DNA of 64,000 bases, taken from assembly GCF_030580675.1 (NCBI RefSeq), contig NZ_JAUQUB010000004.1:62001-126000 (forward strand), written 5' to 3'. Origin of the DNA: Antiquaquibacter soli (GTDB lineage Bacteria > Actinomycetota > Actinomycetes > Actinomycetales > Microbacteriaceae). This document shows, piece by piece, positions 3,839 to 63,072 of this stretch; the first letter of the stretch is position 1, and the number at the start of each line of letters is the position of its first letter. Both the position numbers and the translations under genes were made by a program. Below the pieces are notes generated by a model. That model saw nothing but the letters and a program-made list of their open reading frames with translations. It was not told where the DNA came from and made no database searches.

Positions 3839-4339
3839 ATGTCTCCCGCCCCGCTCGTGGTCGTCATGGGCGTCAGCGGGTCCGGGAAGTCGACCGTCGG
3901 GGCGCTCGTGGCCGACCGGCTGGGCATCCCGTTCGCCGACGCGGACGACCTGCACCCGTCGGCCAATGTCGAGAAGATGCGCGCCGGGCACCCGCTCGAC
4001 GACGAGGACCGCGGGCCGTGGCTGGTTCTGGTCGGGGATGCCCTCGCCGCAGCCCGTGACACCGGTCTCGTCATGGCGTGCTCCTCGCTCAAGCGCGCGT
4101 ACCGCGACCTCATCCGCGACCGCGCCCCGGAGACCGTGTTCGTGTACCTCCACGGCTCCCGCGAGCTGCTCGTCGAGCGGATGTCGGCGCGCGAGGGCCA
4201 CTTCATGCCCTCGACCCTCCTCGACTCGCAGCTCGACACCCTCGAGCCGCCCGGAGCCGACGAGCGCTCGATCACCGTGGACGTCTCGGCGACACCGCGG
4301 GAGCTCGCCGAGCAAATCGCTGGTACTCTGGGTCACTGA
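3839..4339 (+). CDS. gntK: Gluconokinase
   Basis: 166 residues, typical of the P-loop (GntK/IdnK) type of gluconokinase that phosphorylates D-gluconate to 6-phosphogluconate with ATP. The Walker A motif MGVSGSGKSTVG lies at residues 9-20, then the conserved ADADDLHP substrate-binding stretch, the lid CSSLKRAYRD, and the C-terminal GHFMPSTLLDSQLDTLE segment, all in family order. It is divergent from gndA, which uses its product. It ends 137 bp before rplY, with two hairpins in between. Confidence 0.93.
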   Translation: MSPAPLVVVMGVSGSGKSTVGALVADRLGIPFADADDLHPSANVEKMRAGHPLDDEDRGPWLVLVGDALAAARDTGLVMACSSLKRAYRDLIRDRAPETVFVYLHGSRELLVERMSAREGHFMPSTLLDSQLDTLEPPGADERSITVDVSATPRELAEQIAGTLGH

Positions 4340-37982: not shown

Positions 37983-40900
37983 GTGATCCGGCTCTCCCGC
38001 GCCCTCGTCGCCACTGCAACCCTGTCCGCGCTGCTCGCGGTGGGCATCCCGGTCACCGCCCACGCGGCGGAGGATCCCGCCGAGGGCGCCCCCCGCATCC
38101 TCATCAACGAGCTCGCGAACGGCGGACCGCGGTCCGACTCCGACTCGTTCTTCGAGCTGCGCAACTGGGGCGATGAGCCGGTCGACCTGACGGGCTGGCA
38201 GGTGTTCCGCTGCAGCGCGCAAGGGCTGCGGAGCAATGTCGGTCGGACGGAGGGCGACCTCGCGGGCATCGTGCTGCAGCCGGGTGAGATCGTCACCGTC
38301 AGCCGGGTCGGGATGCCCGGCCGCCTGCACATCACGGAGGCTTTCGCCCTCACCGGCTTCGGTCTCTACCTCGAGGACCCCGACGACCGACTCGCGGACG
38401 CCGTCGGCGTGTACCCGAACGAGCCGTGGATGACCGAGTCGGAGTGCACCGTCGGGCGCAACCTGCCGAACCGGCTCGACTTCGCGGCGGGGGAGAGCTG
38501 GCAGCGCGTCTCCGCCACGGGCGACCTCGAGCGCGACTTCGTCGTCGCGCCGGCCACGATCGATGCCCCCAATCGCACGGCTCCGTCCGCCTCCGCCGAG
38601 TCGCCCGTCGTGATCTCCGAGGTCGCGCCCTTCGGCCCGGCGGGAGCCGAGGACGAGTTCGTCGAGCTGGAGAACACCGGCACCGAGGCCGTCGACGTGG
38701 GCGGCTGGCAGCTCTACCGGTGCACGGCGTCGGGCCGAGCCAACCCCGGCTCGCTCGAACTCGTCGTTCCCGACGGCACACTGCTCGCTGCGGGCGAGCG
38801 CTGGGTTATCGGTGGCGACAGATTCGCGGGGGAGCGGGATGCCGCGCTCGGCCACTCCCTCGCCAACGTCGAGTTCGGCGTGCTCCTCCGCACCGGCTCG
38901 GGCGCTCTCGTCGACCGGGTCGCGGTCTCCGCCCACGACGACTCGGCGTGCCAGGACGGCGACGGCAAGCTCCGGGCGATCCTCGACGGCGTCGCGGGGG
39001 AGTCGTACCAGCGCACCGCCGACGGCGAGTACCTCGTCGCCCCGCGCACCCCGGGCACCTCCAACGCCGTCGTCGCCGAGAGCGTGCTGGACGCGCATCC
39101 CACCGTCGCGACGGGGGTCGCGATCAGCGAGCTCGCCACCGATCCCTCGACCGAGGGGATGCCCGCGGGCAGCGTCCAGCGCAATTTCATCGAGCTCGGC
39201 AACTACGGCACGACCCCGGTGGATCTGAGCAACTGGACGGTCCGCCGGTGCCAAGCCGATGGAACGCGGGCCGCCGAGCTGCAGTTCACGGTCCCCGAGG
39301 GCACGCGGGTCGAGCCGGGCGGTGTCTTCCTCGCCGCGCGATCGGGTACCGACGCGGCCTCGATCGCGGACGTCACCTACGACGAGTCTCTGAACTTCCT
39401 CGGCACCGGACTCTGGATCGAGGATGCTGACGGCAACCGCGTCGACCGGGTCGGGGTCTACGCCACCAACGAGATGGACTCCAGCAACGTCGTGGGCAGC
39501 CCGTGCACGAACGGCGCGGCGCTCACGGTGTACCTCCCCGATCGGATGCTCGGCGAGACGTTCCACCGTGCCCAGTTCACCGGCTCGGACGCCGATGACT
39601 ACGTGGCTGCACCGGCGACTCCGGGAGTGATCGACGACCTCGACTGGACCGACCCCACCGCTCGCGTCGCGACCGTCGAGACCGCCGCGCTCGCGGTGCC
39701 GGTGCGGGAGCGCGCCGTCGCCGGGGATGAGCCGACGGCCGCGGCGACCGTGGTGGAGGCGTGGGGCGGGGTGTCCGCGGCGCCGCTCACGCACCGGTCG
39801 GCTCCGGGGGAGGAGGAGCTCGACCCGGGGCATCCCGCCCCTGTGTCCGACGAGGGTTGGGGTCTGCCCTACGTGCGCCTCGTGCTCGACGCGAGTGCCC
39901 TGTCGAGCGGGGACCTCGTCGGCTGGAGCGGGTCGACTGTCGACCGAGGCGAGCTCCAATTGAGCGTGTGGTCGCCCGGCGGGTGGCGGCTCATCGACTC
40001 AGGCCCCTCGGGGCTCCTCTCCGGGGCGCTCGCCGACGGCGACATCGTCAACGGCCGCGTCGAGCTGCTCGTGCAGGACGGGCCGCGCTCGACCCCGACC
40101 GTGACCACCGAGCGCGACGGGATGCTCGAGGACCCGACCGACTACGACTTCGCGATCACCCACATCACCGATACCCAGTACCTCACGGAGAGCTACCCGG
40201 AGGTGTACGCGCAGCTCGCGAGCTGGGTCGCCGACAACGCCGAGTCGCGCGAGATCGCGTTCGCGGTGCACACGGGCGACCTCATCCAGAACTGGGTGGA
40301 CCCCGATCAGAACGAGACGCGCGCCCGGGCCGAGTTCGAGCGGGCATCGGCCATCCAGTCCATCCTCGAGGACGCCGGCGTGGCGTCGAGCGTGCTGCCG
40401 GGCAATCACGACAACAAGCGCGGGGTGACCAACGACCTCTTCAACGAGTACTTCCCGCCGAGCCGCTACGAGAGCAACGACTGGTACGGAGGCTCGATCG
40501 CGCCGGGCGACAACAGTGCGAGCTGCTCGACGTTCGACGAGGCGGGCGCGCGGTTCCTCGTGCTGAGCCTGCCGTACGCCTACGGCGAGCGCGAGATCGC
40601 GTGGGCAGAGCAGGTCGTCGCCGCGCACCCCGATCACAACGTGATCGTCGCCACCCACGAGCACGTGCAGCCGAAGACGCTCGAGGTCGGGGCGCTGCGG
40701 TCGACCGGATCCCGCTGGGTGTCGCGGGGCGGCGAGCTCTGGGAGCGCGTGATCGCCCCGAACCGCAACGTCGTGATGGTGCTCTCCGGCCACTTCCACG
40801 GGCTCGGCCAGATCGTCACCGAGAACGCGGGAGGCATTCCCGGCCACACCGTCGTCGAGGTGCTCGCCGACTACCAGGAGTTCCGCACCCATACGGGCGA

Positions 40901-41186
40901 GCGTGCGACGGGGTTCTTCAGGATGCTCCAGTTCGACCTCGACGGCGGAGCGGTCGCCGTCGACACTCGATCGGTCCGGCTCGCGGAGCCCTACAGCGCC
41001 GACTTCGACTACCACCAGTTCCTGCCGGACAACGGGCAGCCCTCGATCATCTCCAACTCGCGGCCGTGGAACATCGTCGGGGCGGGGCTCCAGGGGCGCT
41101 ACTCGGCCGAGGACGACGAGTTCACGGCGTGGCTGGCGTTCCAGCATCCGAAGCTCGTGGCGACGGATGCTGTGCTCGCCGGCTGA
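37983..41186 (+). CDS. Secreted metallophosphoesterase with three lamin-tail domains
   Basis: 1067 residues, GTG start, signal peptide about 1-28 (ending AHA-AED). Three lamin-tail (LTD) Ig-like domains follow, each opening with a similar strand: ILINELANGG (39), VVISEVAPFG (209), VAISELATDP (378), and each sharing FFELRNWG/FVELENTG/FIELGNYG plus GWQ/NWT R-C patterns with paired cysteines. After a linker comes a calcineurin-like domain: HITDTQY (about 725), HTGDLIQNW (765), GNHDN (806), THEHVQ (893), GHFHG (936), covering the five metal-ligand blocks. No C-terminal anchor is seen. It probably releases phosphate from an extracellular phosphodiester such as nucleic acid or teichoic acid; substrate unknown. 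Confidence 0.85.
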   Translation: MIRLSRALVATATLSALLAVGIPVTAHAAEDPAEGAPRILINELANGGPRSDSDSFFELRNWGDEPVDLTGWQVFRCSAQGLRSNVGRTEGDLAGIVLQPGEIVTVSRVGMPGRLHITEAFALTGFGLYLEDPDDRLADAVGVYPNEPWMTESECTVGRNLPNRLDFAAGESWQRVSATGDLERDFVVAPATIDAPNRTAPSASAESPVVISEVAPFGPAGAEDEFVELENTGTEAVDVGGWQLYRCTASGRANPGSLELVVPDGTLLAAGERWVIGGDRFAGERDAALGHSLANVEFGVLLRTGSGALVDRVAVSAHDDSACQDGDGKLRAILDGVAGESYQRTADGEYLVAPRTPGTSNAVVAESVLDAHPTVATGVAISELATDPSTEGMPAGSVQRNFIELGNYGTTPVDLSNWTVRRCQADGTRAAELQFTVPEGTRVEPGGVFLAARSGTDAASIADVTYDESLNFLGTGLWIEDADGNRVDRVGVYATNEMDSSNVVGSPCTNGAALTVYLPDRMLGETFHRAQFTGSDADDYVAAPATPGVIDDLDWTDPTARVATVETAALAVPVRERAVAGDEPTAAATVVEAWGGVSAAPLTHRSAPGEEELDPGHPAPVSDEGWGLPYVRLVLDASALSSGDLVGWSGSTVDRGELQLSVWSPGGWRLIDSGPSGLLSGALADGDIVNGRVELLVQDGPRSTPTVTTERDGMLEDPTDYDFAITHITDTQYLTESYPEVYAQLASWVADNAESREIAFAVHTGDLIQNWVDPDQNETRARAEFERASAIQSILEDAGVASSVLPGNHDNKRGVTNDLFNEYFPPSRYESNDWYGGSIAPGDNSASCSTFDEAGARFLVLSLPYAYGEREIAWAEQVVAAHPDHNVIVATHEHVQPKTLEVGALRSTGSRWVSRGGELWERVIAPNRNVVMVLSGHFHGLGQIVTENAGGIPGHTVVEVLADYQEFRTHTGERATGFFRMLQFDLDGGAVAVDTRSVRLAEPYSADFDYHQFLPDNGQPSIISNSRPWNIVGAGLQGRYSAEDDEFTAWLAFQHPKLVATDAVLAG

Positions 41187-41200
41187 CGTCGTGGGTGCGG

Positions 41201-42373
41201 CTAGACCGCGGTAGCGGCGTCGAAGGCGGCCGACCGGGCGAGCTGGGCGGCGAGGGATGCCGCCCCGTCGAGCACGGCGTCCTCGCCCGCGGTCGCGGTC
41301 AGCACGGCGACTCCCGCGTGGGGGAAGGCGTCGGCGAGCCGATCCGCGACGGGCCCCGTCAGGAGGTCCCCGTTGCCGCCGATCGCACCGCCCAGGATGA
41401 CCGCTTCCGGATCGAGTACGAGGCCGAGGGTCGCGATCACGCGCGCGAGCCGCGCGGCCGTCCGATCCACGACGCGGAGTGCCGCGGCATCCCCGGTCCT
41501 CGCCCGCTCGAACACGTCGCGCGCCGAGAGAGTCGAGGGCAGGCCCTCCTCGGCGGCGTCCGCGGCGACGCTCGCGCTGCCCAGTGTGCCGTCGACGACG
41601 TCGTCGCGGCCCGGGAGGTAGTTCACCTCGCCCGCCGCTCCTCGAGTACCGCGGTGGACCCGGCCGCCGATCACGATGCCGGCTCCGACGCTCGCCCCGA
41701 CGCTCAGGAGCACGAAGTCGGAGAGCTCCCGCGCCGCGCCGACGCGCTGCTCGGCGATCGCCGCGAGGTTGGTGTCGTTCTCCAGGGTCACGGCGAACGG
41801 GAGCGCGGCGGCGAGCGCCTCGGGCAGTCCCCGGCCCTCGTCGGCGAGGCCGTCGGCGAGCAGCAGGGCGCCCGACGCGGTGACGGTCGCGGCGACTCCG
41901 ACCACCGCGCCGGCCAGGTCGGCGAGGGCGAGTCCCGCCGTCGCGCAGCACCGCTCGATCACCGCCGCGACCTCGGCCGCGGTCGCCGCCGCCGAGGAGT
42001 GCTCGGCGGGAGCATCCGCCCGTGCGAGCACCTCTCCCGTCGTCCCCACGAGCACCGCCCTCACACGGTGGTGCCCGACGTCCACGGCTGCGGCCACCCG
42101 GTATCGCTCGTCGAGGGCGTAGAGCGTCGCGACGGGACCTCGACGGTCGGAGTCGTGCCCCGCGACGACGACGATGCCGCGGCGCTCGAGCTCCGCGAGG
42201 GTCTGGGCGACCGCCGTCTTCGACAGCCCGGACGCCCGCCGGATCTCCGGGCGAGCGACGGGGGCCAGCCGCGCGACGATGTCGAGAACGGCGCGGGCGT
42301 TGATCGACCAGAGCAGGCTCGGCGATCCCGCGGGCGGAACCCCGTGGGCCGGTGAGGCGGGCTCCAGGGTCAT
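41201..42373 (-). CDS. ROK-family transcriptional repressor
   Basis: 390 residues from ATG 42373. An N-terminal winged HTH (RPEIRRASGLSKTAVAQTLAELERRG) joined to a ROK/hexokinase-fold sensor with VDVGHHRVRAVLVG, the ROK signature region (VTLENDTNLAAIAEQRVGAA) and GASVGAGIVIGGRV. The usual ROK zinc motif (CxCGxxGCxE) is absent after GEVNYLPG, so this sensor is likely non-metal and probably without kinase activity. It is coupled to the MFS gene by an ATGA overlap and divergent from a catabolic operon, the classical place of a XylR/NagC-like repressor. Direct repeats at 43744-43775 are its candidate site. Confidence 0.85.
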   Translation of the reverse strand: MTLEPASPAHGVPPAGSPSLLWSINARAVLDIVARLAPVARPEIRRASGLSKTAVAQTLAELERRGIVVVAGHDSDRRGPVATLYALDERYRVAAAVDVGHHRVRAVLVGTTGEVLARADAPAEHSSAAATAAEVAAVIERCCATAGLALADLAGAVVGVAATVTASGALLLADGLADEGRGLPEALAAALPFAVTLENDTNLAAIAEQRVGAARELSDFVLLSVGASVGAGIVIGGRVHRGTRGAAGEVNYLPGRDDVVDGTLGSASVAADAAEEGLPSTLSARDVFERARTGDAAALRVVDRTAARLARVIATLGLVLDPEAVILGGAIGGNGDLLTGPVADRLADAFPHAGVAVLTATAGEDAVLDGAASLAAQLARSAAFDAATAV

Positions 42374-43707
42374 GGCACGAGCGGCTGGACGGGCAGCTCG
42401 GCGTCGGGCTCGTCCTCGCGGTCGGCGCCCGGCACCGTGACATCCCGCTGCTTCAGGAAGAGCGCGATGACGAAGGAGATCACGAGGAACCCGAGCGGCA
42501 CGGCGGAGGTGAGGAAGATGAACGTCCCGGCGGGGTCGGGCCCCGCCTGCTCGCCGCTCACGTAGCCGAAGAGACCGCCCACGATCGCGAAGGCGAGGGC
42601 GGTGAGCAGCGCCGACGTCCTTGCCATGAAATTGGCGACGGCGGTGTAGATCCCCTCGCGACGGCGGCCGGTCTTGGCGGCATCCACATCGATGATCTGC
42701 GACTGCACGAGCTGCGGGATCACGAAGTGACCGGCGATGCCGATCGAGAGGATGGCGCCGGCGACGAGCCCCGAGATGAAGTCGCGAGCGAAGAACAACG
42801 GCAGCACGGTGAGGGCGAAGACGGCGATCGACACCTTGTAGCTGCGCAGGATGCCCACCCGTCGCACGACGAAGTACCAGGCGACCGCCATCGGGATGAC
42901 GAGCGCGAAGGTGGTCAGCAGCGTGATGGACACCAGGCCGCCCTCGATGAGGAGCACGTACTTCGCGTAGAAGGCGATCGTCGAGGAGATGAGTCCGACG
43001 ACGGCGGCGGCGAACGTGTACGACACGTTGTAGATCCAGAACGGGCCGTTCTTGAGGGTGATCGCGAACGCCTCCCGCAAGGGCAGCGGCTCCTCGACGG
43101 AGGCCTGCGGGTTCTCCCGGGTGAACGCGATGGAGATCACCATGAGCACGACGAAGGCGATCGCGTAGGCGATCGCCATCCCGGAGAAGCCGACCGAGTC
43201 GTACAGCAGCGGCGTCACGGCGGTGCCGACGAGGAGCGCGACGATGTAGAACGCCTGCTGGATGACGGAGACGCGCGTGCGCCGGTTGGCGTCGGTGAAG
43301 ATCTCGGGGAAGAGCGAGAGGTAGTTGACCGAGATGATCGCCATCGCCGTCTCGAAGAGCAGCATGAAGGCGAGGAACCAGAAGAACAGCCCCAGGCCCT
43401 CGACCGCGTCCGGCACGCTGTAGAGCAGGACGAAGAAGAGGGCGTAGAGGGGGATGCCCGTCACGATCCACGGCGTACGGCGACCCCATCGCGTGCGCGT
43501 CTTGTCGCTGAGGAACCCGCTCACCGGCTGGACGGCCGCATCCCACACGACGTAGATGGAGCGGGCGATCGCGTACAGGCCGACCGCGAGCCCGAGGGTG
43601 TCGATGTAGTAGAAGCTGTAGAAGAGCGAGAACGCGGTGCTCGGCAGCATGATGGCGAGGTTGCCCAGGCCGTAGGTGAGCGGGGAGTTGATCGCCTTCG
43701 TCGCCAT
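42370..43707 (-). CDS. MFS (GPH-like) sugar transporter
   Basis: 445 residues, about twelve membrane segments. It has the GPH-family hallmark in loop 2-3, SDKTRTRWGRRTPWI, preceded by a conserved aspartate in WDAAVQPVSGFLSD, and the mid-protein loop with RRRVGILRSYK-like basic residues. GPH transporters move glycosides with Na+ or H+. The start at 43707 has a Shine-Dalgarno GAAAGG. Divergent from the operon at 43802-50148 with a 94-bp shared promoter region, so it most likely imports that operon's substrate. Confidence 0.85.
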   Translation of the reverse strand: MATKAINSPLTYGLGNLAIMLPSTAFSLFYSFYYIDTLGLAVGLYAIARSIYVVWDAAVQPVSGFLSDKTRTRWGRRTPWIVTGIPLYALFFVLLYSVPDAVEGLGLFFWFLAFMLLFETAMAIISVNYLSLFPEIFTDANRRTRVSVIQQAFYIVALLVGTAVTPLLYDSVGFSGMAIAYAIAFVVLMVISIAFTRENPQASVEEPLPLREAFAITLKNGPFWIYNVSYTFAAAVVGLISSTIAFYAKYVLLIEGGLVSITLLTTFALVIPMAVAWYFVVRRVGILRSYKVSIAVFALTVLPLFFARDFISGLVAGAILSIGIAGHFVIPQLVQSQIIDVDAAKTGRRREGIYTAVANFMARTSALLTALAFAIVGGLFGYVSGEQAGPDPAGTFIFLTSAVPLGFLVISFVIALFLKQRDVTVPGADREDEPDAELPVQPLVP

Positions 43708-43739
43708 GGCGCGCCTTTCGTCGGGTGGGCCGCTAGCCG

Positions 43740-43775
43740 GTAGGCAACTTTATGACCTACTCTGTGAGCAACTTT
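43740..43775. promoter_or_regulatory. Candidate ROK operator between MFS and catabolic operon
   Basis: GCAACTTT occurs twice in the same orientation, at 43744-43751 and 43768-43775, 24 bp apart start to start. The first copy is flanked by inverted GTAGG (43740-43744) / CCTAC (43756-43760). This is the A/T-richest part of the 94-bp divergent promoter region. Confidence 0.55.
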
Positions 43776-43801
43776 GTAGCACGAGGGAGACGCGCGGAGC
43801 A

Positions 43802-45196
43802 ATGACCGATCCGACGAGCCCGATCCCGGGCATCCGCACCGGCCGCCAGCCCGTCCGCGGGCACGACGACCCGGCCGGCGACTTGCGCGTCTTCGCCGTC
43901 CAGTACCGGCTCGACGTCGCCCACGCCGACAGTTACGAGTCCTACCGCTCCGCAATGCGCGAGCTCATGGACTCGCTCGTCGTGCCGCACCTCGTGCCCG
44001 GCCGACCGGCTCTCGTGGTGTTCCCCGAGGCGGTCGGGCTGCCGACCGTCGCGATCGGGGCCCGGGGCGAGGCGTTCCGAGCCCTGCCCTCGGCCCCCGC
44101 GGTCGAGGCGCCCGCCGCGCTCGCCGCCGGGATGGGGATGCTCGCCGCCGCCTACGAGCGCCAGCTGGTGGGGTACATCGGCCTGTTCGGAGAGCTCGAC
44201 CCTCGATCGGCCCTGCTCCTGGCAGCCACGGACACCGCGGCGCGCGCGTTCTCCCAGACGTTCAGCGACATCGCGCGCGACTACGGCGTGTGGGTCGTCG
44301 CCGGCAACTATCAGCCGCCCTACCGAGAGACGCGCGACCCCGAGGAGGTCGCTCTCTTCGGCGACCCCGAGGTCGCGGACGGCGTCGCCTACGTCGCCAC
44401 GACCCCGCACGTCACGAACGCGACGTTCCTCTGGTCTCCCGATACCGTGCGCGCCGACGCCCCGGCAGGCGAGTCGAACCTCGTCGTGCGCAACGAGAAG
44501 ATCCCCTTGACCGACATGGAGCTCGACTTCCTCGGCCTCGCCGAGGGACCCGCGGAGGGCGAGGATGCCCGGCGCAACGCCGGCTGGGTCGATGTCGCCG
44601 GCTTCCGCGTCGGCTTCGCCACGAGCCTGCCCGCGTTCGCCTACGGCTACCCCTTCGGCCAGCGGCCCGACGGCTTCGACCCGTTCGCCGACCTGCGGGA
44701 GAGCTACGCGGCCGCTCAGGACGCCCTCGACGTGGACGTGATGATCCAGGCCGACGCCAACCCCGGGCCCTGGGCTTTCCCCGTGGAGAGCGGCGCGTGG
44801 CAGCCGCTCGAGTGGATGGGGTCGACGTGGCGGGCGGTCGCCGACCCGACGGTGCGGTTCCGCTACAACGTCACCCCGATGATGACGGGCAACCTCGTCG
44901 ACCTCTTCTTCGACGGCCAGTCGTCGATCACGTCCCGGGTCGCCTCGGGCGATCCCGCTCGCTTCGTGGGCAACGGCGAGAGCGGCACCGCCGAGTACGA
45001 CGTCTACGCCGGTGACAAGACCGAGTTCCTGGCGATCTCCGACTGGGTGGTCGACGACGGCCCGCGGGAGGAGCTCGTGCAGCTCACCGGGGCGCTGTCG
45101 CCGGGGTCCGGTCATCCGCTCGAGGGGCAGCAGATCGAGACGGCGATCTACGCCGACCTCGTCCTGCCCGACGGGGACGGTGGTGCTCGTGCGTGA
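43802..45196 (+). CDS. Nitrilase-fold protein lacking the catalytic cysteine
   Basis: 464 residues from ATG 43802 with Shine-Dalgarno GAGGGAG. It resembles the carbon-nitrogen hydrolase fold: a VVFPEAVG strand carries Glu76, RNEKIPLTDMELDFL carries Lys233, and FRVGFATSLPAFAYGYPFG is where the catalytic Cys normally sits after a hydrophobic strand. That position is Thr274-Ser275, and the protein has no cysteine anywhere. The active triad is thus E-K-(T/S), not E-K-C. Either it uses a Ser/Thr nucleophile, or it binds without cleaving. It is 466-residue-class, longer than typical 260-330-residue nitrilases. First gene of a five-gene operon with 4-14-base overlaps or short gaps. Confidence 0.65.
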   Translation: MTDPTSPIPGIRTGRQPVRGHDDPAGDLRVFAVQYRLDVAHADSYESYRSAMRELMDSLVVPHLVPGRPALVVFPEAVGLPTVAIGARGEAFRALPSAPAVEAPAALAAGMGMLAAAYERQLVGYIGLFGELDPRSALLLAATDTAARAFSQTFSDIARDYGVWVVAGNYQPPYRETRDPEEVALFGDPEVADGVAYVATTPHVTNATFLWSPDTVRADAPAGESNLVVRNEKIPLTDMELDFLGLAEGPAEGEDARRNAGWVDVAGFRVGFATSLPAFAYGYPFGQRPDGFDPFADLRESYAAAQDALDVDVMIQADANPGPWAFPVESGAWQPLEWMGSTWRAVADPTVRFRYNVTPMMTGNLVDLFFDGQSSITSRVASGDPARFVGNGESGTAEYDVYAGDKTEFLAISDWVVDDGPREELVQLTGALSPGSGHPLEGQQIETAIYADLVLPDGDGGARA

Positions 45197-46160
45197 CTCG
45201 GCGTGGGGGTTCCCGATCATCGACGTGCACTGCCACTTCCCGGTGCCCGACGAGTACCCGAACTGGCTCGAGCAGACCTACGTCGCGGAGCACGGCGTCG
45301 AGAAGTGGCAGAAGGTGCGCTCGGACTGGCGCTGGTACCAGGAGGAGTGGTGGTCGCGCTTCGGGTTCCCGTTCCCCGAGGACGTCGAGCCCGCCGCCGA
45401 CGTGCAGGCGCGGCGCTGGCAGGAGGAGGTGGATGCGGCGTCGCTCGAGGCGGTCGTCTTCATGACCGGCGGAAGCAACGACACTCTCGCGACGGCCCTC
45501 GAGGGCCATCCGCGGATGCTCGGCTTCGCCCACCACGACCCGTTCTCGCCCGCCGCCGCTGCCGAGCTGCGCCGCGCCGTCGCGGAGCGCGGCCTGCGCG
45601 GGTACAAGGTGATCGCCCCCGCGCTGCCCGGGCCCATCGACTCCCGGGAGCTGTACCCGGTGTGGGCGGTCGCGGAGGAGCTGGGCATCCCGGTGCTCGT
45701 CCACTTCGGTACGAACGACGGCGGAGGCGGTACCGCCTGGCACGAGAACATCAGCCCCCTGCGACTGCACGATGTGGCGAAGGCGTTCCCGACCGTGCCG
45801 TTCATCGTGCCGCACTTCGGCTGCTCGTACCCCGGCGAGCTCCTGCAGCTCATGTGGGCGTGCCGCAATGTGCACGTCGACACGTCCGGTAACAACGAGT
45901 GGATTCGCTGGATGCCCTACCCGCTGTCCCTCGCCGACCTCTTCCACCGCTTCCACGACACCGTCGGGCCGGAGCGGATCCTGTTCGGCTCGGACTCGGC
46001 GTCGTTCCCGCGCGGACTCGCACGGAAGTACTACGAGCTCCAGCTCGAGGCGGTCGCGGAGGCGGGCATCCCGGACGCGGATCGCGATCTCGTCTTCGCG
46101 GGCAACGCGGCTCGGCTCCTCGGGCTCGACGGCACGCTCGACGGCGACGGGGAGGGCTGA
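45183..46160 (+). CDS. Amidohydrolase-family metal-dependent hydrolase
   Basis: 325 residues from GTG 45183 (GTG 45189 is two codons downstream; a GGGGA run upstream suits the first better). N-terminal metal-binding IIDVHCHFPVP (HxH), later YKVIAPALPG, LVHFGTND (His), FIVPHFGCSYP (His) and FGSDSASFPRG (Asp), the five-ligand pattern of a COG2159/amidohydrolase_2 TIM barrel. These enzymes decarboxylate or hydrolyse small carboxylates, amides or lactones. Starts inside the nitrilase-fold gene (14 bp overlap) and ends 4 bp before the next start, so it is fully coupled. Confidence 0.85.
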   Translation: MLVRDSAWGFPIIDVHCHFPVPDEYPNWLEQTYVAEHGVEKWQKVRSDWRWYQEEWWSRFGFPFPEDVEPAADVQARRWQEEVDAASLEAVVFMTGGSNDTLATALEGHPRMLGFAHHDPFSPAAAAELRRAVAERGLRGYKVIAPALPGPIDSRELYPVWAVAEELGIPVLVHFGTNDGGGGTAWHENISPLRLHDVAKAFPTVPFIVPHFGCSYPGELLQLMWACRNVHVDTSGNNEWIRWMPYPLSLADLFHRFHDTVGPERILFGSDSASFPRGLARKYYELQLEAVAEAGIPDADRDLVFAGNAARLLGLDGTLDGDGEG

Positions 46161-46164
46161 GGCG

Positions 46165-48006
46165 ATGTCCGAATCGCTGACGACGTTCGCGCCGATCGAG
46201 ACGCCGGAGTCGCTGCACCCGACCGGGAGCCTGCTCGTCGCCCTCCCCGAGATCGATGACCGCGGCTGGTGCCGCTCGATCAACATCGCGCACGAGGGCC
46301 AGCGCGGTCTCGTCGCGGCGCACTCCGATTCCGCGCTGATCCGCCCGGTCGTCACCGTCGACGGCGTCGAGGCCTCGCCCGGTCTCGAGTGGAGGAGGCT
46401 CGGCCACTGGGTCCCCTCGGCGCGCGGCTCGGACGAGCGCGGCGAACTCGGCCTCGCCTACCTCGCGCCGGTCGCCGAGCAGGGCGTCGTCGCGCGGGTG
46501 GAGTGGACGAACACCACCGGCTCCCCTCAGGAGGTGGCGCTCGCGTTCACGGGGGAGTGGAGCGCCGTGCAGGTGCACCACTTCAAGGCCAAGCGGCTGT
46601 CCGTGGGGCTGCGCGAGCGCGATGACGAGTGGACCGGCGCGCGCACCGTGTACGCCGGCGCGGACCGCCTCCTGCTGTCGATCTCGTGGCGGGCGGGGGA
46701 GGGCGCGGCGCACGGCGGGCATCCCGCGCACGGCTGGCTCACCGAGCGCTCCGGGACCCTCGAGCCCGGCGACTCCCTGTCGCTGGAGGTCTTCATCGGT
46801 GTCGCCACGGAACCCGACGGCTCGGGCGCCACCGCGCTGCACTTGCGGCGGCGAGGCGCCGACGCGCTCCTCGCCGGAACGCTCGACTGGCTGGATGCCC
46901 GGTCCCTCGGCACGGGCGACGACGCGCTCGACGCGCGCCTCAACGAGAACCTCTTCTTCAGCTACTTCTTCGCCCAGGCGGACTGCCTCGACTCCGGTCG
47001 CGCGGTGATGCTCACCTCGCGCAGCCCGCGCTACTACGTCTCGGGCGCCTTCTGGAGTCGTGACGCGTACTGGTGGACCTTCCCCGCGATCCTGCTCGCC
47101 GACCCCGCCCGGGCGCGTCGCGTGCTCGTCGAGTCGATCGCCTCCGCGGGGTCCGACATAGCCCACCACGCCCTGTACATCACGGGTCAGCGGCTCTACC
47201 CGGGCTTCGAGCTCGACGAGCTCACGGCGCCGCTCCTCGCGATCTGGCGCTACACCGACTCCACGGGTGACCGCTCGGTGCTCCGCGAGCCGGCGATCGC
47301 CGCCTTCCTCGACCACTACCGCGCGGAGCTCGCGGAGTGGTTCGACGCCGACCTCGGCCTGTACGGCACCTTCCTGCTCCCGACCGACGATCCCACCGAC
47401 TTCCCGTTCGTGACGACGGACAACGCGACCGTCGCGGTCGGCTTCCGCATCCTCGCGGCCTTCGACGAGAGCCCGACCGCCGCAGCGCGGCTCCTCGACC
47501 GCGCCCTCTCGGTCGAGCTCGCCCTCGTCGACCGCGCGATCACGGCCGACGGCCGCTGGGCCTGGGCGATCGACTCGAGCGGCGCGCACGAGCTGCGCGA
47601 GGAGCCGCCCCTCGGCCTGCGGCTCCTCGACTACTTCGGAGTCGTGGACGCCCCGGCGCGGGCCGCGACCGAGCGATGGCTCGTGACCGACTACGAGTAC
47701 CACTTCGGCGGCGCGTATCCCGGAGCGGGGGCCCCCCACTTCGCGAGCCCCTCGTCGTTCGACCTCGGCAACCGGATGCTCACGGCCAATGCGGACCTCG
47801 GAGACCCGGTCGAGCAGTTCGTGGCGGCTCCCCTCGACAACGGCCTCGGCTGCGAGTCCTGGGATCCGCTCACCGGGCAGGTCGTGACGGGGGCGGCGAT
47901 GGCGAGTGTCGCGGGCTTCCTCGCCTGGACGGCGTGGGCGAACCGCACCGGCCACCGGCGCTGGAACGACCCGTTCGGCAGCGGCGCGCAAGGCGGTCCC
48001 CGGTGA
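46165..48006 (+). CDS. Six-hairpin (alpha/alpha)6 glycosidase-like protein
   Basis: 613 residues from ATG 46165 with GGAGGG nearby. An N-terminal beta-sandwich (about 1-240) precedes an alpha/alpha barrel with RSPRYYVSGAFWSRDAYWW and GGAYPGAGAPHFASPSSFD, the aromatic-plus-acidic pattern of six-hairpin glycosidases (GH15/GH63/GH78-type folds). I cannot assign a glycoside hydrolase family; Asp and Glu residues in SRDAYWW, LLPTDDPTDF and the LREEPPLGLRLLDYFG region are candidates for catalysis. No signal peptide, so it acts inside the cell on an imported oligosaccharide or glycoside. Overlaps the next gene as GTGA. Confidence 0.55.
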   Translation: MSESLTTFAPIETPESLHPTGSLLVALPEIDDRGWCRSINIAHEGQRGLVAAHSDSALIRPVVTVDGVEASPGLEWRRLGHWVPSARGSDERGELGLAYLAPVAEQGVVARVEWTNTTGSPQEVALAFTGEWSAVQVHHFKAKRLSVGLRERDDEWTGARTVYAGADRLLLSISWRAGEGAAHGGHPAHGWLTERSGTLEPGDSLSLEVFIGVATEPDGSGATALHLRRRGADALLAGTLDWLDARSLGTGDDALDARLNENLFFSYFFAQADCLDSGRAVMLTSRSPRYYVSGAFWSRDAYWWTFPAILLADPARARRVLVESIASAGSDIAHHALYITGQRLYPGFELDELTAPLLAIWRYTDSTGDRSVLREPAIAAFLDHYRAELAEWFDADLGLYGTFLLPTDDPTDFPFVTTDNATVAVGFRILAAFDESPTAAARLLDRALSVELALVDRAITADGRWAWAIDSSGAHELREEPPLGLRLLDYFGVVDAPARAATERWLVTDYEYHFGGAYPGAGAPHFASPSSFDLGNRMLTANADLGDPVEQFVAAPLDNGLGCESWDPLTGQVVTGAAMASVAGFLAWTAWANRTGHRRWNDPFGSGAQGGPR

Positions 48007-48809
48007 CGCTCGTGATCGCCCATCGCGGGGCGAGCGCCGACGCCCCGGAGCAGTCCCGCGCGGCCTACGAGCTGGCACTCGAGCAGGGCGCGGACGGGGT
48101 CGAGTGCGACGTGCGGGTCACAGCGGACGGCGAGGTCGTCTGCTTCCACGACGCCACCCTCGATCGCACGCTCGGGGTCCCGGGCTCGGTGGTCGACCTC
48201 ACCCTCGAGCAGCTGCGGGCGCTCGACCCGGGGCTCGTGACCCTCGGAGAGCTGCTGCAGTTGCTCCGGGATGCCCGGCGCCCGCTCGTCCTCGCGGTCG
48301 AGCTGAAGCATCCGAACCCCGTCGGCACCGCCCTCGAGGCGGCCGTCGTCGGCGTCCTGGACGCCGCGGGCTGGGACCGTGCCAGGGCGCGCGTCGACGA
48401 CGTGACGGTGAGCCTCATGAGCTTCAACCCGCTCAGCGTCGCCGCCCTCGGCATCGATCCGCGGCTCGTGATGATCCTCACGGGCGTCATCACGATCGAC
48501 GACGTCGCCGCCGAGCTACCCCCGGGCGCCGCGGGGGAGGCTGCGGCCGCGGAGCTCGAGCGGGCGCTCGCCGCGGGACTTCAGCTTCTCGACGGGGCGG
48601 TCGTCGGCGGGGCGGGTCCCGAGCTGGAGTTCTGCCGGCAGCAGCCCGACCGCGTCCGATCGTGGATCGCCGCGGGGCTCACCGTCCGGGTCTGGACCGC
48701 GGACGACCCCGCCGACGTCGACTTCCTCGTGGAGCTGGGCGTTCCCGAGATCACCACGAACCGCCCTGCCGCGGTTCTCGAGCAGCTCGGGAGGGCTCAT
48801 GCGCAGTGA
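48003..48809 (+). CDS. Glycerophosphodiester phosphodiesterase family protein
   Basis: 268 residues from GTG 48003. GDPD motifs: VIAHRGASADAPEQSRAAY with the catalytic HR, GVECDVRVTADGEVVCFHD with metal-binding Glu/Asp and the second catalytic His, AVELKHPN for the next Glu, and a C-terminal RVWTADD. All the active-site positions are filled. It would hydrolyse a glycerophosphodiester to glycerol-3-phosphate and an alcohol; no signal peptide, so intracellular. Placed between a glycosidase-like protein and an amine oxidase. MAO gene begins 11 bp inside its 3' end. Confidence 0.88.
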   Translation: MTLVIAHRGASADAPEQSRAAYELALEQGADGVECDVRVTADGEVVCFHDATLDRTLGVPGSVVDLTLEQLRALDPGLVTLGELLQLLRDARRPLVLAVELKHPNPVGTALEAAVVGVLDAAGWDRARARVDDVTVSLMSFNPLSVAALGIDPRLVMILTGVITIDDVAAELPPGAAGEAAAAELERALAAGLQLLDGAVVGGAGPELEFCRQQPDRVRSWIAAGLTVRVWTADDPADVDFLVELGVPEITTNRPAAVLEQLGRAHAQ

Positions 48810-50148
48810 CGTCATCGTCGTGGGGGCGGGGCTGGCGGGTCTCGCCGCGGCTCGCGCGCTCGTGGCGGCAGGGGCATCCGTGACCGTCCTGGAGGCGCGT
48901 GACCGGGTCGGCGGGCGCACCGAGGGCGGGGTGCTCTCCGACGGGCAGTGGATCGAGCTCGGCGGGCAGTGGCTCGGCCCGGGGCACGACCGGATGTACG
49001 GGCTCGTCGCGGAGCTCGGCCTCGAGACGGTCCCCACTTACAACACGGGCAAGACGGTCATCCACCTCGGCGGGCGCCGCACGCTCATGGGCGAGCTCAA
49101 GGGCGCCGTCCCGAGGCTCGACCCCTTCTCCCTCGTCGATCTCGGCCAGGGACTCGCTCGCTTCGCCGCCCTCTCCCGGCGAGTGCCCCTCGAGCGGCCG
49201 TGGGACACCCCCGACGCGACGGTGCTCGACGGGCAGACCTTCGAGTCCTGGATCCGCCGCACTCTCAAGACGAAGAACGGACGCGAGTACTTCCGTGTCG
49301 CGTGCGAGGCGGTCATGTCGGCCGAGCCCGGCGACCTGTCGCTCCTGCACGCCGCGTTCTACAGCAAGAGCGGCACCGACCTCGAGACCCTCATGGCGGT
49401 CGACCAGGGGGCGCAGCAAGACCGCGTGCTCGGGGGATCGGTGCTGGTGAGCGAGCGGATGGCGGAGTCGCTCGGCGACCGCGTCGTCCTCGGTGCGCCG
49501 GTGCGCCGCATCGCCCAGTCGGGGTCGGGTGTCACCGTCACCACGCGCGACGGTCGCGATTTCGACGCCGACCGCGTCATCGTGACGCTCCCGCCGACGC
49601 TCGCCGGTCGACTCGAGTACGAGCCGGCGCTGCCGAGCTGGCGCGATCAGCTCACCCAGCGCGTGCCGGCGGGGTCCGTCATCAAGCAGTACCTCGTGTA
49701 CGAGTCGCCCTTCTGGCGCGAGGACGGCCTCAACGGTCAAGCGGGCTCCGACCGCGGCCCGGTGAAGGTCACCTTCGACAACTCGCCTCCCGGCTACGAG
49801 CGAGGCATCCTGCTCGGCTTCATGGAGGGCGCGGATGGCCGTGAATACGCCCGGCGCTCGCCGGAGGAGCGGCGGCAGGCGTTCATCGACTCGGTGGTGC
49901 CCTACTTCGGCGGGCGGGCGAGGGACGCCGTCGAGTACCACGAGCGCGACTGGATGGCCGAGGAGTTCAGTCGGGGATGCTACGGCGCCCACTTCACACC
50001 CGGCACCTGGACCTCCTACGGACCAGCCCTGCGCGAGCCCGTCGGAGGCATCCACTGGGCGGGCACGGAGTGCTCGCCGGTCTTCAACGGCTACATGGAG
50101 GGCGCCGTGCGCTCGGGGGAGTCCGCGGCCGAGGCGGTACTGGCGTAG
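48799..50148 (+). CDS. Flavin-containing monoamine oxidase-family protein
   Basis: 449 residues from ATG 48799. FAD Rossmann motif VIVVGAGLAGLAAARAL, then EARDRVGGRTEGG, the GGQWLGPGHDRM segment, VIVTLPPTLAGRLEYEPALP, and near the C-terminus SRGCYGAHFTPG and GIHWAGTECSPVFNGYMEGAVRSG. Cys394 in the RGCY motif corresponds to the cysteine that carries covalent FAD in mammalian MAO and putrescine oxidases. It should oxidise a primary amine to an aldehyde with release of ammonia and H2O2. Last gene of the five-gene operon; a convergent acyltransferase-like gene starts 10 bp beyond. Confidence 0.9.
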   Translation: MRSDVIVVGAGLAGLAAARALVAAGASVTVLEARDRVGGRTEGGVLSDGQWIELGGQWLGPGHDRMYGLVAELGLETVPTYNTGKTVIHLGGRRTLMGELKGAVPRLDPFSLVDLGQGLARFAALSRRVPLERPWDTPDATVLDGQTFESWIRRTLKTKNGREYFRVACEAVMSAEPGDLSLLHAAFYSKSGTDLETLMAVDQGAQQDRVLGGSVLVSERMAESLGDRVVLGAPVRRIAQSGSGVTVTTRDGRDFDADRVIVTLPPTLAGRLEYEPALPSWRDQLTQRVPAGSVIKQYLVYESPFWREDGLNGQAGSDRGPVKVTFDNSPPGYERGILLGFMEGADGREYARRSPEERRQAFIDSVVPYFGGRARDAVEYHERDWMAEEFSRGCYGAHFTPGTWTSYGPALREPVGGIHWAGTECSPVFNGYMEGAVRSGESAAEAVLA

Positions 50149-50158
50149 CGCGATCCGC

Positions 50159-50791
50159 CTACTCGCGCGCCCGGCCCAGCGCGCCCTCGTCCATCGGCGG
50201 CATCTCCTCGGTGAGCTGGCGCGCCCGGTTGGGGTGGCGCAGCGCCGCGGTGAAGACCTGCCCCAACGCGGTCCGGCGCCCGTCGCCGTGGAGCTTTCCC
50301 GCCCAGCCGTTGGCCTGATGGAAGGCGTCCGCCGTGTACAGGAGGGTGGATGCGACGAACCGTCGCCTCCACTCGGGTGCGACGAAGATCTGGTGCACGA
50401 GACCGTCGCGCGGGTACCACCGAACCGCCCCCGCCTGCTCGCCATTGGGGACGCGAGCGGTGGCGAACGCGTACCGGGAGATGATCGTGCCCGCGGGGAA
50501 GCGGTCGCCACCGAACGCGACGAGGTTCGTCGCCGCGGGCGAGGCCGATGGTTCGTCGACCCAGACGAACCAGAGGGCCGGCTGCTCGGGCAGGAGGTAC
50601 CGGCCGATCGCGACGTGGGCGAGTCCGGCATCCGCCTCGGTGACGCTCCACGCCGCCTCGATGTCGGGCTCCGCGCCACCGTCGTCGATCGTGCCGTCGG
50701 CCACCGAGTCGTCCCCGTAGGCGGCGACGTCCCACAGCCCGGAGGACAGGCGGCCGCGTCGCACGTACCGTGCGTTCCGAGCAGTCTTCAT
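50159..50791 (-). CDS. GNAT-like putative acyltransferase
   Basis: 210 residues, ATG 50791. A weak GNAT-like core: a beta strand then VHQIFVAPEWRRRFVASTLLYTADAFHQANGW, which resembles motif A (acetyl-CoA pyrophosphate loop, R/Q-x-x-G-x-G/A) with WRRRFVAS in place of the standard glycines, and FATARVPNGEQAGAVRWY before it. Assignment is tentative; I find no close family. It stands alone, converging on the amine oxidase gene and divergent from an LAATG surface protein. Confidence 0.45.
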   Translation of the reverse strand: MKTARNARYVRRGRLSSGLWDVAAYGDDSVADGTIDDGGAEPDIEAAWSVTEADAGLAHVAIGRYLLPEQPALWFVWVDEPSASPAATNLVAFGGDRFPAGTIISRYAFATARVPNGEQAGAVRWYPRDGLVHQIFVAPEWRRRFVASTLLYTADAFHQANGWAGKLHGDGRRTALGQVFTAALRHPNRARQLTEEMPPMDEGALGRARE

Positions 50792-50797
50792 ACTGCT

Positions 50798-50803
50798 ATT
50801 GTC
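50798..50803 (-). promoter_or_regulatory. -10 element of leaderless acyltransferase-like transcript
   Basis: On the minus strand GACAAT ends six bases before ATG 50791, the same hexamer and spacing as hisS. Confidence 0.5.
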
Positions 50804-50850
50804 GAGCCCAGCGCTCTCCGCGCGCTCCGACCACCCTGGGGGACCCCATC

Positions 50851-51957
50851 GTGAAGAAGACCATCGCCGCTCTCGGCGCGTCCGTTCTCGGCCTCGGATC
50901 GGCCGTCGCCGTCGGTGCCGCCCCCGCGAACGCGGAGCCGGCCCCGGTGACCGATTGCGCGAACATCGAGGAGCAGATCGGCTCGCTCGGCTCGTCGAAC
51001 GACCCCGCCGAGATGTGGTTCGAGAACTGCATCCCCCAGTACGGCCTGGGCAAGGTCGAGTTCACGATCGTCCCCGACGAGGACAACCCGGCTGTCGACT
51101 TCCCCGAGGACTTCGTCACTCTTGACGATGCGGCCTATGAGGACTCTCCGATCACCGTGACGACCACGACCGACGCCGCCGCGCTCCAGGCCTACTTCGG
51201 TGCGGAGGACGCTCCCTACTCGATCGCGCCGATCCTCCCGCAGACCATCCTCGACGAGGAGTCGAACTCGCAGACCTACGGCGCCACGGTGATCGCCAAG
51301 ATCTCTTCCCTCACGGCGGCGGACCCGGAGACGGTCCCCGCCGACGTCGTGTCGCTGTGCGAGTACGACGAGCTCGACTTCGGCGGATACGTCGCCTCGT
51401 ACGACCCCATCGACACCACCTTCACGCAGACCGTCGACGGTGCCGAGTGGACGTATACGATCACCGGTCAGTCGCCGGACAGCTACTTCCTCATCACGAC
51501 CGTGGACGAGGTCCCGTTCCTCTGCATCACCGACGGGGAGAACGCCGCGTGGGGCCCCCTGTCGAGTGGTGGGTACATCTACCTCGGAGTCGTGCTGCCG
51601 TTCATCCCCGAGACGTTCTCCGGGCCGACCTCGTTCGAGCAGTCGGCCGACGCGAGCGCGTCGGAGATCCGCGAGCTCCTCGACGGGACGATCGAGCCCG
51701 CGGCGATCGGCGACAGCGGCCTCTACACGCTCGGCGTCTTCGAGCGGCTGGGAGTCCCGGCACCCGGTCCGGCGCTCGCGGCGACGGGGTCGGACGGCAA
51801 CGCGCTGATCCTCCCGGCGATCATCGTCGGCGGCGTCGTGGTGCTCGGTGGAGCGCTCATCGCGGTCAGCGTCATCCGCCGTCGTCGCACGAACCCCGCT
51901 ACCGAGACCGTCGCCCCGGCGGAGTCCTCGGCTCCTCCGACCGACCCGGCCGTCTAG
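50851..51957 (+). CDS. Secreted protein with LAATG sortase-type sorting signal
   Basis: 368 residues from GTG 50851 with GGGGGA about 8 nt before. Signal peptide about 1-29 (AxANA-EP). The middle is acidic and Thr/Ser rich with a few paired cysteines (DCANIEEQ, NCIPQ, LCEYDE, LCITDG). The C-terminus has LAATGSDG at about residues 309-316, a membrane helix and a RRRR stop-transfer, followed by a Ser/Pro tail. LAxTG is the sorting signal of class E sortases of actinobacteria. So it is likely covalently cell-wall-anchored. No sortase gene lies in the window. Function unknown. Confidence 0.8.
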   Translation: MKKTIAALGASVLGLGSAVAVGAAPANAEPAPVTDCANIEEQIGSLGSSNDPAEMWFENCIPQYGLGKVEFTIVPDEDNPAVDFPEDFVTLDDAAYEDSPITVTTTTDAAALQAYFGAEDAPYSIAPILPQTILDEESNSQTYGATVIAKISSLTAADPETVPADVVSLCEYDELDFGGYVASYDPIDTTFTQTVDGAEWTYTITGQSPDSYFLITTVDEVPFLCITDGENAAWGPLSSGGYIYLGVVLPFIPETFSGPTSFEQSADASASEIRELLDGTIEPAAIGDSGLYTLGVFERLGVPAPGPALAATGSDGNALILPAIIVGGVVVLGGALIAVSVIRRRRTNPATETVAPAESSAPPTDPAV

Positions 51958-61596: not shown

Positions 61597-63072
61597 ATGT
61601 CTGCGCCATTCTCCACCGCCACCGGGTCCGATGTCCGCGTCCGGTTCTGCCCTTCGCCGACCGGAACCCCGCACGTCGGCCTCATCCGCACCGCCCTGTT
61701 CAACTGGGCCTACGCCCGCCACACGGGCGGCACGATGGTGTTCCGCATCGAGGACACGGATGCCGCGCGCGACAGCGAGGAGAGCTACCTGCAGCTCCTC
61801 GACGCGCTGCGCTGGCTCCGGATCGACTGGGACGAGGGCATCGACGTCGGCGGGCCCCAGGCGCCGTACCGGCAGTCGCAGCGCACGGACATCTACCTCG
61901 ACGTGATCGAGAAGCTGAAGGCATCCGGCCACCTCTACGAGTCGTTCGTCACTCCCGAGGAGATGGAGGCGCGCAACCGCGCGAACGGCCGCGACCCGCA
62001 GCAGGGCTACGACAACTTCGAGCGCGACCTCACCGACGAGCAGCGCGCCGCCTACCGCGCCGAGGGGCGTCAGCCGGCGCTGCGGCTGCGGGTGCCGGAC
62101 AGCGACCTGAGCTTCACCGACCTGGTTCGCGGCGAGATCACCTTCCCGGCCGGGTCGTTCACCGATTTCGTCGTGGTGCGGCCGAACGGCGCGCCGCTCT
62201 ACACATTCGTGAACCCGGTGGATGACGCGCTCATGGGCATCACCCACGTCCTCCGCGGGGAGGACCTCCTGTCGTCCACGCCTCGGCAGATCGCGCTGTA
62301 CTCCGCGCTCATCGAGATCGGGCTGACCACGTTCATCCCGCGCTTCGGCCACCTGCCCTACGTGATGGGCGAGGGCAACAAGAAGCTCTCGAAGCGCGAC
62401 CCCGAGTCGAACCTGTTCCACCACCGCGACCGCGGCTTCATCCCGGAAGGGCTCGTCAACTACCTGGCCCTCCTCGGCTGGTCGCTCTCTGCGGACCGCG
62501 ACGTGTTCTCCATCGAGGAGCTCGTCGCCGCGTTCGACGTGGAGAGCGTCAACCCGAACCCGGCACGCTTCGACGTCAAGAAGGCCGAGTCGATCAACGG
62601 CGACCACATCCGCCTGCTCTCCGCTGACGATCTCGCCGAGCGACTGGAGGCGTACCTGCCGGGCCTCATCACGACCGATGAGCGCCGTCAGAAGCTGCGG
62701 GATGCGACGCCCCTCGTCCAGGAGCGCATGCAGCTGCTCGGCGAGGCGCCGGGCCTGCTCGGCTTCCTCTTCACCGCGGACGACGACCTCGTCGTCGAGC
62801 CCGACGCGCTCCCGGGCCCCGAGGGCGCCGAGGTCCTCGACGCCGCATTGCGCGTCCTTCCGGGTCTCGACAGCTTCGGACACGCGGCCATCGAGGAGGC
62901 GCTGCGCGCCGAGCTCATCGACACCCTCGGTCTCAAGCCGCGGGTGGCATTCGGTCCGCTGCGGTCCGCGATCTCCGGTCGACGCATCAGCCCGCCGCTG
63001 TTCGAGTCGATGGAGCTGCTCGGCAAGGAGTCGACGCTCAAGCGCATCGAGAGGCTCCGGGCGCAGCTGTGA
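61597..63072 (+). CDS. gltX: Glutamyl-tRNA synthetase
   Basis: 491 residues from ATG 61597. Class I synthetase: HIGH-type [52 protein letters not shown] equivalent [11 protein letters not shown]. The C-terminal anticodon-binding domain is complete. It likely is the discriminating GluRS or the non-discriminating type used with GatCAB; gatCAB genes are not here. Stop overlaps the next GTG. Confidence 0.95.

Follow-up and report, generated by a model that had tools for sequence, protein, structure and literature searches.

A conserved seven-gene cassette linking a ROK repressor and an importer to an unusual enzyme set in Microbacteriaceae

Overview

In the window – by which we mean the whole stretch of 64,000 nucleotides analysed, positions 62001–126000 of contig NZ_JAUQUB010000004.1 in the 3.22-Mb genome of Antiquaquibacter soli – seven closely packed genes encode a ROK-family repressor, an importer and five enzymes or enzyme-like proteins. 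We lean, if not strongly, towards the view that they form a self-contained mobile catabolic cassette for one imported compound. The best reading of that compound is a glycosylated, phosphodiester-bearing amine or N-acyl amine, and the reaction order proposed below is reconstructed on the same footing. The grounds are the occurrence of the same set in the same order in three species, a promoter element common to all three, flanks that differ between them, a congener whose corresponding site is free of the cassette, and the conservation of key residues.

The two minus-strand genes, for the ROK protein (41201–42373) and for an MFS_2/GPH-like cation symporter (42370–43707), overlap by 4 bp. Divergent from them, five plus-strand genes encode a nitrilase-superfamily homologue, placed there by remote profile kinship, with S275 at the position of the catalytic Cys (43802–45196), an Amidohydro_2 family protein (45189–46160, GTG start), a six-hairpin, GH125-related glycosidase-like protein (46165–48006), a GDPD-family enzyme (48003–48809, GTG start) and a flavin monoamine oxidase (MAO; 48799–50148). 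The junctions between these five measure, in gene order, −8, +4, −4 and −11 bp, and the gap between the two arms (43708–43801) spans 94 bp; these coordinates agree with an earlier note on this DNA, which had described five plus-strand genes overlapping or at most 4 bp apart and a 94-bp divergent region. Inspection of the five enzyme starts likewise bears out the same note's statement that signal peptides are absent: none was seen in any of them. Pfam cut-offs are passed by matches to PF00480, the MarR_2 helix-turn-helix (HTH), PF13347, PF04909, PF03009 and PF01593, while among the NCBIfam matches listed (for the MAO, the best 25 of 90) none of the five enzymes has one at its cut-off.

Conservation and proposed gain of the cassette

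A scan of contigs from 84,980 species, each represented by a single genome, used patterns taken from the one nitrilase-like protein, an approach that detects close relatives only, and returned four confirmed loci. Two of them, in the Microbacteriaceae Glaciibacter flavus (L011) and Homoserinibacter sp. GY 40078 (L012), carry all seven genes with order and orientation unchanged, and so repeat the co-occurrence of families to which the earlier note had drawn attention. Their cassette proteins are 46–75% identical to those of the window, with ROK orthologues at the same place (61% and 46% identity, respectively), importers at 72% and 69%, and Amidohydro_2 proteins at 70–74%. The conservation beyond close relatives on which that note had set store was thereby found in part: the full set reaches three species in at least two genera (Homoserinibacter being a genus other than the window's), all within one family, beyond which there are parts only. 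The proteins that flank the cassette in the window – a metallophosphoesterase (MPE), GNAT and mtlD – are unmatched within 5–7 kb on each side of the other two cassettes; since the flanks differ in this way, the conserved unit spans ROK to MAO.

Within the window's family, the nitrilase-like protein was found in two of 299 genomes (the window's own and that of Homoserinibacter) and the full-length six-hairpin protein in the same two, of 398, with partial matches in six more; within the genus, only the host itself, one of 21 genomes, has the nitrilase-like gene. In one congener (G1048), the MPE gene stops at 4183 and the mtlD gene starts at 4193, with 9 bp and no cassette between them, against an MPE-to-mtlD distance of 10.8 kb in the window. 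Two further congeners (G1041 and G1038) have MPE, with neither mtlD nor cassette genes within 15 kb, and another two (G1053 and G1046) have mtlD, with neither MPE nor cassette genes within 10–12 kb. The simplest reading of this presence and absence is the gain of a mobile cassette. A tblastn search (E ≤ 1e-5) of the PLSDB plasmids with the nitrilase-like protein gave no match.

The Glaciibacter cassette is itself adjoined, on the strand opposite to ROK, by an MFS-like gene, a GH3-type glycosidase, a dehydrogenase and a GDSL-type gene (L011:2096–7244), names that were given by eye or from matches below cut-off.

The divergent promoter region and the importer

The gaps between the divergent arms of the three cassettes have in common an ungapped block of 27 bp (43740–43766 in the window, with no strand assigned), 18 columns of which are identical; dinucleotide shuffles yielded at most 12 identical columns, none of 300 sets reaching 18. 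The window copy contains GTAGG-N11-CCTAC, and a degenerate pattern of the block, allowing up to three mismatches, has a single match in the host genome, where its reversed control has none. Because the block is conserved in three cassettes and occurs once in the host genome, it supports a dedicated switch – most simply a candidate operator for the ROK protein and/or candidate promoters for both directions. The ROK protein (PF00480, 118 bits; MarR_2, 28.8 bits) is read as a repressor rather than a sugar kinase because of its HTH domain. The earlier note's proposal of one catabolic locus gains from this shared element as well as from the recurrence of the set and its order, and a catabolic role is probable.

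The importer scores 195 bits against PF13347 and, against TIGR00792 (gph), 138.7 bits, below the cut-off of 231.35. A transporter–repressor pair divergent from hydrolases is also the layout of sugar operons with a GPH symporter and a ROK regulator; to our knowledge, however, none of GDPD, MAO, Amidohydro_2 or a nitrilase homologue is usual in such operons. That the locus builds or modifies a compound instead of degrading one seems very improbable. Pfam and NCBIfam assign no sugar kinase or aldehyde dehydrogenase in the cassette, which would suit such a role, yet they assign no transferase or ligase either, and the importer with its ROK repressor, the hydrolytic and oxidative families and the patchy, accessory distribution all argue for catabolism.

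A nitrilase homologue with serine for cysteine

The nitrilase-like protein has no match in Pfam (E ≤ 0.1), NCBIfam (E ≤ 0.01) or the PDB (E ≤ 1). A profile built from five relatives has matches in five of 394 genomes sampled from the class and in 17 of 396 sampled from the phylum, counts that take in the host genome and weak matches. The relatives were divided by eye into three classes: close ones (class A), remote ones of which some bear a C-terminal repeat region (class B), and remote ones that have Cys (class C). Classes A and B align with each other by hhalign with probability 99.9 and E 3.2e-37, their serines in register; both of the class B members scanned (two of five) lie above the PF00795 cut-off, and the class B motif ISKD aligns with ICYD of solved Nit2-type structures. 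The best Foldseek match is likewise a CN hydrolase (E 3.4e-4, from a low-confidence query model). Indirectly, through this profile chain from class A to class B, the window protein can be placed in the nitrilase superfamily (PF00795) as a remote member.

The Glu–Lys–Cys triad of the superfamily is incomplete in the window protein, which has Glu76 and Lys233 together with Ser275 at the position of the catalytic Cys. The same serine is present in all 14 class A sequences (window included) and all five of class B, hence in 19 of the 20 class A/B sequences, and each of these 19 retains both Glu and Lys. The twentieth (L048:8567–9928) has A, R and G in place of Glu, Lys and Ser and is likely to be a true pseudoenzyme within the same clade; in the class C outgroup (L053 and L057), Cys occurs together with Glu and Lys. 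The count leaves aside a frame-broken gene (L047), a fragment with Cys by reading (L055), a locus with no tblastn hit (L056) and three wrong reading frames (L086–L088). Serine at the Cys position is, in these alignments, a widely shared, conserved feature, for which a catalytic role is putative. The earlier note had spoken of a 'pseudo-nitrilase': the replacement of Cys by Ser stands, but the gene is not a decayed one, since Ser with Glu and Lys is kept in a clade that extends across the phylum sample.

The homologue might nonetheless be a true pseudoenzyme – a non-catalytic subunit or binding protein, with the chemistry left to the other four enzymes – a proposal that overlaps with the other readings discussed here and that we regard as a serious contender, if an unlikely one. 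In its favour, every class A and B sequence but L048 has Ser at the position of the catalytic Cys, and L048 itself has lost Glu, Lys and Ser together. Against it, all 19 Ser-type sequences still have the Glu and the Lys, for which a pure scaffold would have no use, and fusion to GDPD and export-like signals, described below, occur in several lineages.

Among described systems, the closest comparison is with the Nit2-type amidases of the CN_hydrolase superfamily, to which the window protein is joined by the profile chain, the low-confidence structural match and the retained Glu and Lys. It differs from them in the serine that replaces the catalytic Cys across its clade, in its length of 464 aa, which includes an additional, conserved region at the C-terminus, and in the GDPD fusions found among its relatives. 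Four class B members (L049, L051, L052 and L054) have long C-terminal repeats with a BNR/sialidase-type look by eye; a Pfam BNR_2 match was seen in L052, where it is weak.

GDPD, MAO and importer genes beside relatives in other lineages

In four loci – one in a Thermoleophilaceae metagenome-assembled genome (MAG; L014) and three others (L041, L042 and L044) – the nitrilase-like domain has a GDPD domain fused to its N-terminal side, and the fusion protein begins with a signal-like sequence; the Pfam check of this fusion covered L042 only. In eight of the 14 class A loci, no more than 4 kb separates the nitrilase-like domain from a strong MAO match; three of the eight represent one cassette type and another three (L038–L040) one family. 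The distance is 3.6–3.8 kb in the three full cassettes and at most 1 kb in L013, L038, L039, L040 and L042, with the two genes overlapping by 4 bp in L038. As the host genome has six PF01593 matches in 3.2 Mb, chance proximity can be estimated at near 2% per locus. The GDPD fusions and the MAO neighbours in other lineages lend independent support to a nitrilase–GDPD–MAO link. In a further locus (L047:3566–5238), the nitrilase-like gene is frame-broken and adjoins a distant, weakly matching flavin amine oxidase.

Starts resembling export signals were recognised by inspection on the nitrilase-like protein in L013 and L038–L040 and on the MAO in L038 and L042, the Tat profile giving 18.9 bits for the MAO of L038 against a cut-off of 22.7. 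In the stretches examined around relatives with export-like signals on the nitrilase-like protein, GDPD or MAO, there is no importer match. Export there, taken with import here, would imply an external substrate that is handled either outside or inside the cell.

Importer-like and six-hairpin genes recur in a different combination. In family f56, a remote MFS gene adjoins the class B nitrilase-like gene (L049–L051), and L049 has in addition a six-hairpin gene at 32% identity. Across the phylum sample, a six-hairpin match occurs in three of 396 genomes, all of them among the 17 with a nitrilase-like match; in one (G1021) it covers positions 7–176 only, at a contig end, and, as two of the three share one genus, they represent two lineages. 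The genes for a PIG-L/BshB1 deacetylase and a kynureninase at L049 were weighed as hints to the pathway but set aside: both pass NCBIfam cut-offs for other pathways.

These partial sets would also suit a history in which genes were transferred together without serving one pathway: importer, ROK and the GH125-like protein would then deal with a glycoside, while, under the same promoter, the nitrilase-like protein, GDPD and MAO scavenge other compounds for phosphorus and nitrogen. For this speaks the occurrence of the sub-modules apart from each other, with the nitrilase-like gene next to GDPD or MAO and no importer or six-hairpin match in some loci (L013, L014, L038–L042 and L044) and, in L049, with a six-hairpin and an MFS gene and no GDPD or MAO match. 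However, the genes overlap in one operon, the divergent promoter element is conserved in three cassettes, and the nitrilase-like gene itself belongs to both sub-modules; we consider two unrelated pathways a distinctly doubtful explanation.

The six-hairpin protein and its kinship to GH125

Alone, the six-hairpin protein of the window scores 14.9 bits against PF06824 (GH125), below the gathering score of 23.4 (E 0.012), whereas a profile of four sequences (A4) matches GH125 chains with E values from 2.9e-14 to 2.9e-7, including 3p2c at 2.9e-14 and, at 4.5e-8, CpGH125 (3qt3). In the alignment with 3qt3, with positions counted by hand, D220 falls on D408 of the window protein and E393 on E564. 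According to the partial text of PMC9425025, D220 of CpGH125 is the proposed catalytic acid, and E393 and R405 hold the nucleophilic water; the portion seen of a second GH125 paper (PMC9883506) names Asp220 as well. The position of Arg405 is taken by a glycine (G576), invariant in the four A4 sequences. The protein is probably a glycosidase, GH125-related but distinct, so that the earlier description as a six-hairpin protein can be refined, with catalytic Asp and Glu kept. Mannose as the sugar removed would be a guess by analogy with GH125.

The GH125 exo-α-1,6-mannosidases of cytoplasmic glycan-degradation loci, such as those of C. acnes and Streptococcus in the partial text of PMC6160142, resemble the window protein in having no signal peptide and in standing among genes with the look of a glycoside-degrading set. 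The two have the Asp acid and the Glu base in common, but the window protein has a longer N-terminal region and Gly for the GH125 Arg, and is partnered by GDPD, MAO and a nitrilase homologue. In general, GH125 loci of this kind can also have ROK genes as neighbours. Separate GH125-like proteins exist within the window's own family: ordinary GH125 motifs were read in five of the six partially matching loci (the sixth, L107, being left out of the reading), and these proteins read W-L-R-D where the window protein has W-S-R-D. A Foldseek ranking of the six-hairpin model (GH94, GH116 and GH65; best E 3e-9) was set aside, as its TM-scores are at most 0.35 and the sequence-profile match to GH125 was favoured.

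The amidohydrolase, GDPD and MAO

The remaining enzymes keep their expected residues. In the Amidohydro_2 protein (PF04909, 125.3 bits), H14, H16, H172, H209 and D269, which we take to be the likely metal ligands, are invariant in the three orthologues, and the GDPD-family enzyme (PF03009, 123.8 bits) has the HR, ExD and HD residues of what is presumably the GDPD motif, HR...ExD...HD.

The MAO (PF01593, 273.7 bits) has its best PDB match in the bacterial monoamine oxidase 8p84 (E 3e-115, full-length alignment), followed among others by human MAO B (1gos, E 8.7e-82), with GCY, GSVIK and GYMEG aligned. It keeps Cys397, Lys296, Tyr398 and Tyr435 of MAO B – the first presumably the FAD-binding residue, the others presumably active-site residues – and oxidation of a primary amine is therefore expected. 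What sets it apart from 8p84 is that its gene shares an operon with those for GDPD and a nitrilase homologue.

The pairing of a flavin amine-oxidase-fold enzyme with a nitrilase-superfamily protein recalls DavBA, which combines a flavoenzyme of that fold, lysine monooxygenase, with a nitrilase-superfamily amidase, 5-aminovaleramidase. By analogy, the MAO-like enzyme would produce an amide for the nitrilase homologue to hydrolyse. Such an oxidative route is very improbable: the closest relatives of the window MAO are true amine oxidases (8p84, MAO B, MAO A and putrescine oxidase), whose Cys, Lys and both Tyr it has, and L-amino acid oxidases match it far more weakly (best E 7.4e-26).

Proposed pathway

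Several observations weigh against a single catabolic cassette gained by transfer. The full set has been found only in one bacterial family, and the congeners may have lost the genes rather than the host having gained them; the G+C of the cassette (0.718) does not stand out from that of its surroundings (0.70–0.71), so that composition carries no signal of transfer. A strong MAO match was not found in the examined stretch of six of the 14 class A loci (L014, L041 and L043–L046), and near the 20 class A/B loci, some on contigs that end early, an importer match occurs in six and a six-hairpin match in four, that of L049 adjoining kynureninase and BshB1 deacetylase genes, both over their cut-offs. 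As to function, the change from Cys to Ser may abolish catalysis, and the loss of the GH125 Arg may put specificity, or even activity, of the glycosidase-like protein in question. Finally, the AlphaFold models are poor, with a mean predicted local distance difference test (pLDDT) of 52.8 for the nitrilase-like and 51.9 for the six-hairpin protein, which rules out a three-dimensional comparison of active sites.

On the favoured reading of one pathway for one imported compound, the GPH-like symporter would bring in a small glycoside, and the GH125-related enzyme, using an Asp/Glu mechanism, would strip the sugar from it. Seated on the 27-bp element, the ROK repressor would sense the sugar or the glycoside and free both divergent promoters. 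GDPD would then cleave a phosphodiester of the aglycone; the nitrilase homologue, with Glu, Lys and Ser, would hydrolyse an amide (or ester) to release a primary amine, which MAO would oxidise to an aldehyde, ammonia and H2O2. The Amidohydro_2 enzyme might act on one of the products as a lactonase, hydratase or decarboxylase, its place in the sequence being left free. That all five enzymes would work on a single molecule, and that this might be the glycerophospho-amine head group put forward as an example in the earlier note, are conjectures.

A bolder version, which we put forward tentatively and think rather unlikely, concerns the clade as a whole. After exchanging Cys for Ser, it would have become a Ser–Glu–Lys amidase that acts after GDPD and before MAO in a three-step route for glycerophospho-N-acyl-amines; this route would be exported in some bacteria, for instance the Thermoleophilaceae MAG (L014) and Hamadaea (L013). 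In Microbacteriaceae it would have been internalised and would travel as a mobile cassette, joined there by an importer, a glycosidase of GH125 type and a ROK switch.

Neighbouring genes

Upstream of the cassette lies a plus-strand gene (37983–41186) whose product of 1067 aa has three matches to lamin-tail domains, in addition to a calcineurin-like phosphoesterase domain, and a signal-like start; it is patchy in the genus (four of 21 genomes, the host's included). Downstream, also on the plus strand, 50770–51957 encodes a surface-type protein with no Pfam match, whose C-terminus has an LAATG-like motif, a hydrophobic stretch and arginines – by eye, a sortase-like signal.

Novelty and significance

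In the literature covered – titles and the beginnings of abstracts, with most subscription papers outside – there is no account of the cluster, of a nitrilase–GDPD fusion or of a serine nitrilase clade, in line with the earlier note, which knew of no described pathway with these genes. Transporter–repressor catabolic cassettes are themselves a known kind; this one stands out by its unusual set of enzymes.

If the proposal is true, it would give access to a protein family whose main branch Pfam misses and which is spread over the Actinomycetota sample, and would put to a natural test the ability of the nitrilase scaffold to function with serine. For the Microbacteriaceae that carry it, the locus would be a mobile cassette for a nutrient class new to knowledge, and the promoter region near the ROK gene, where the two arms diverge, would provide a ready reporter for finding that nutrient.

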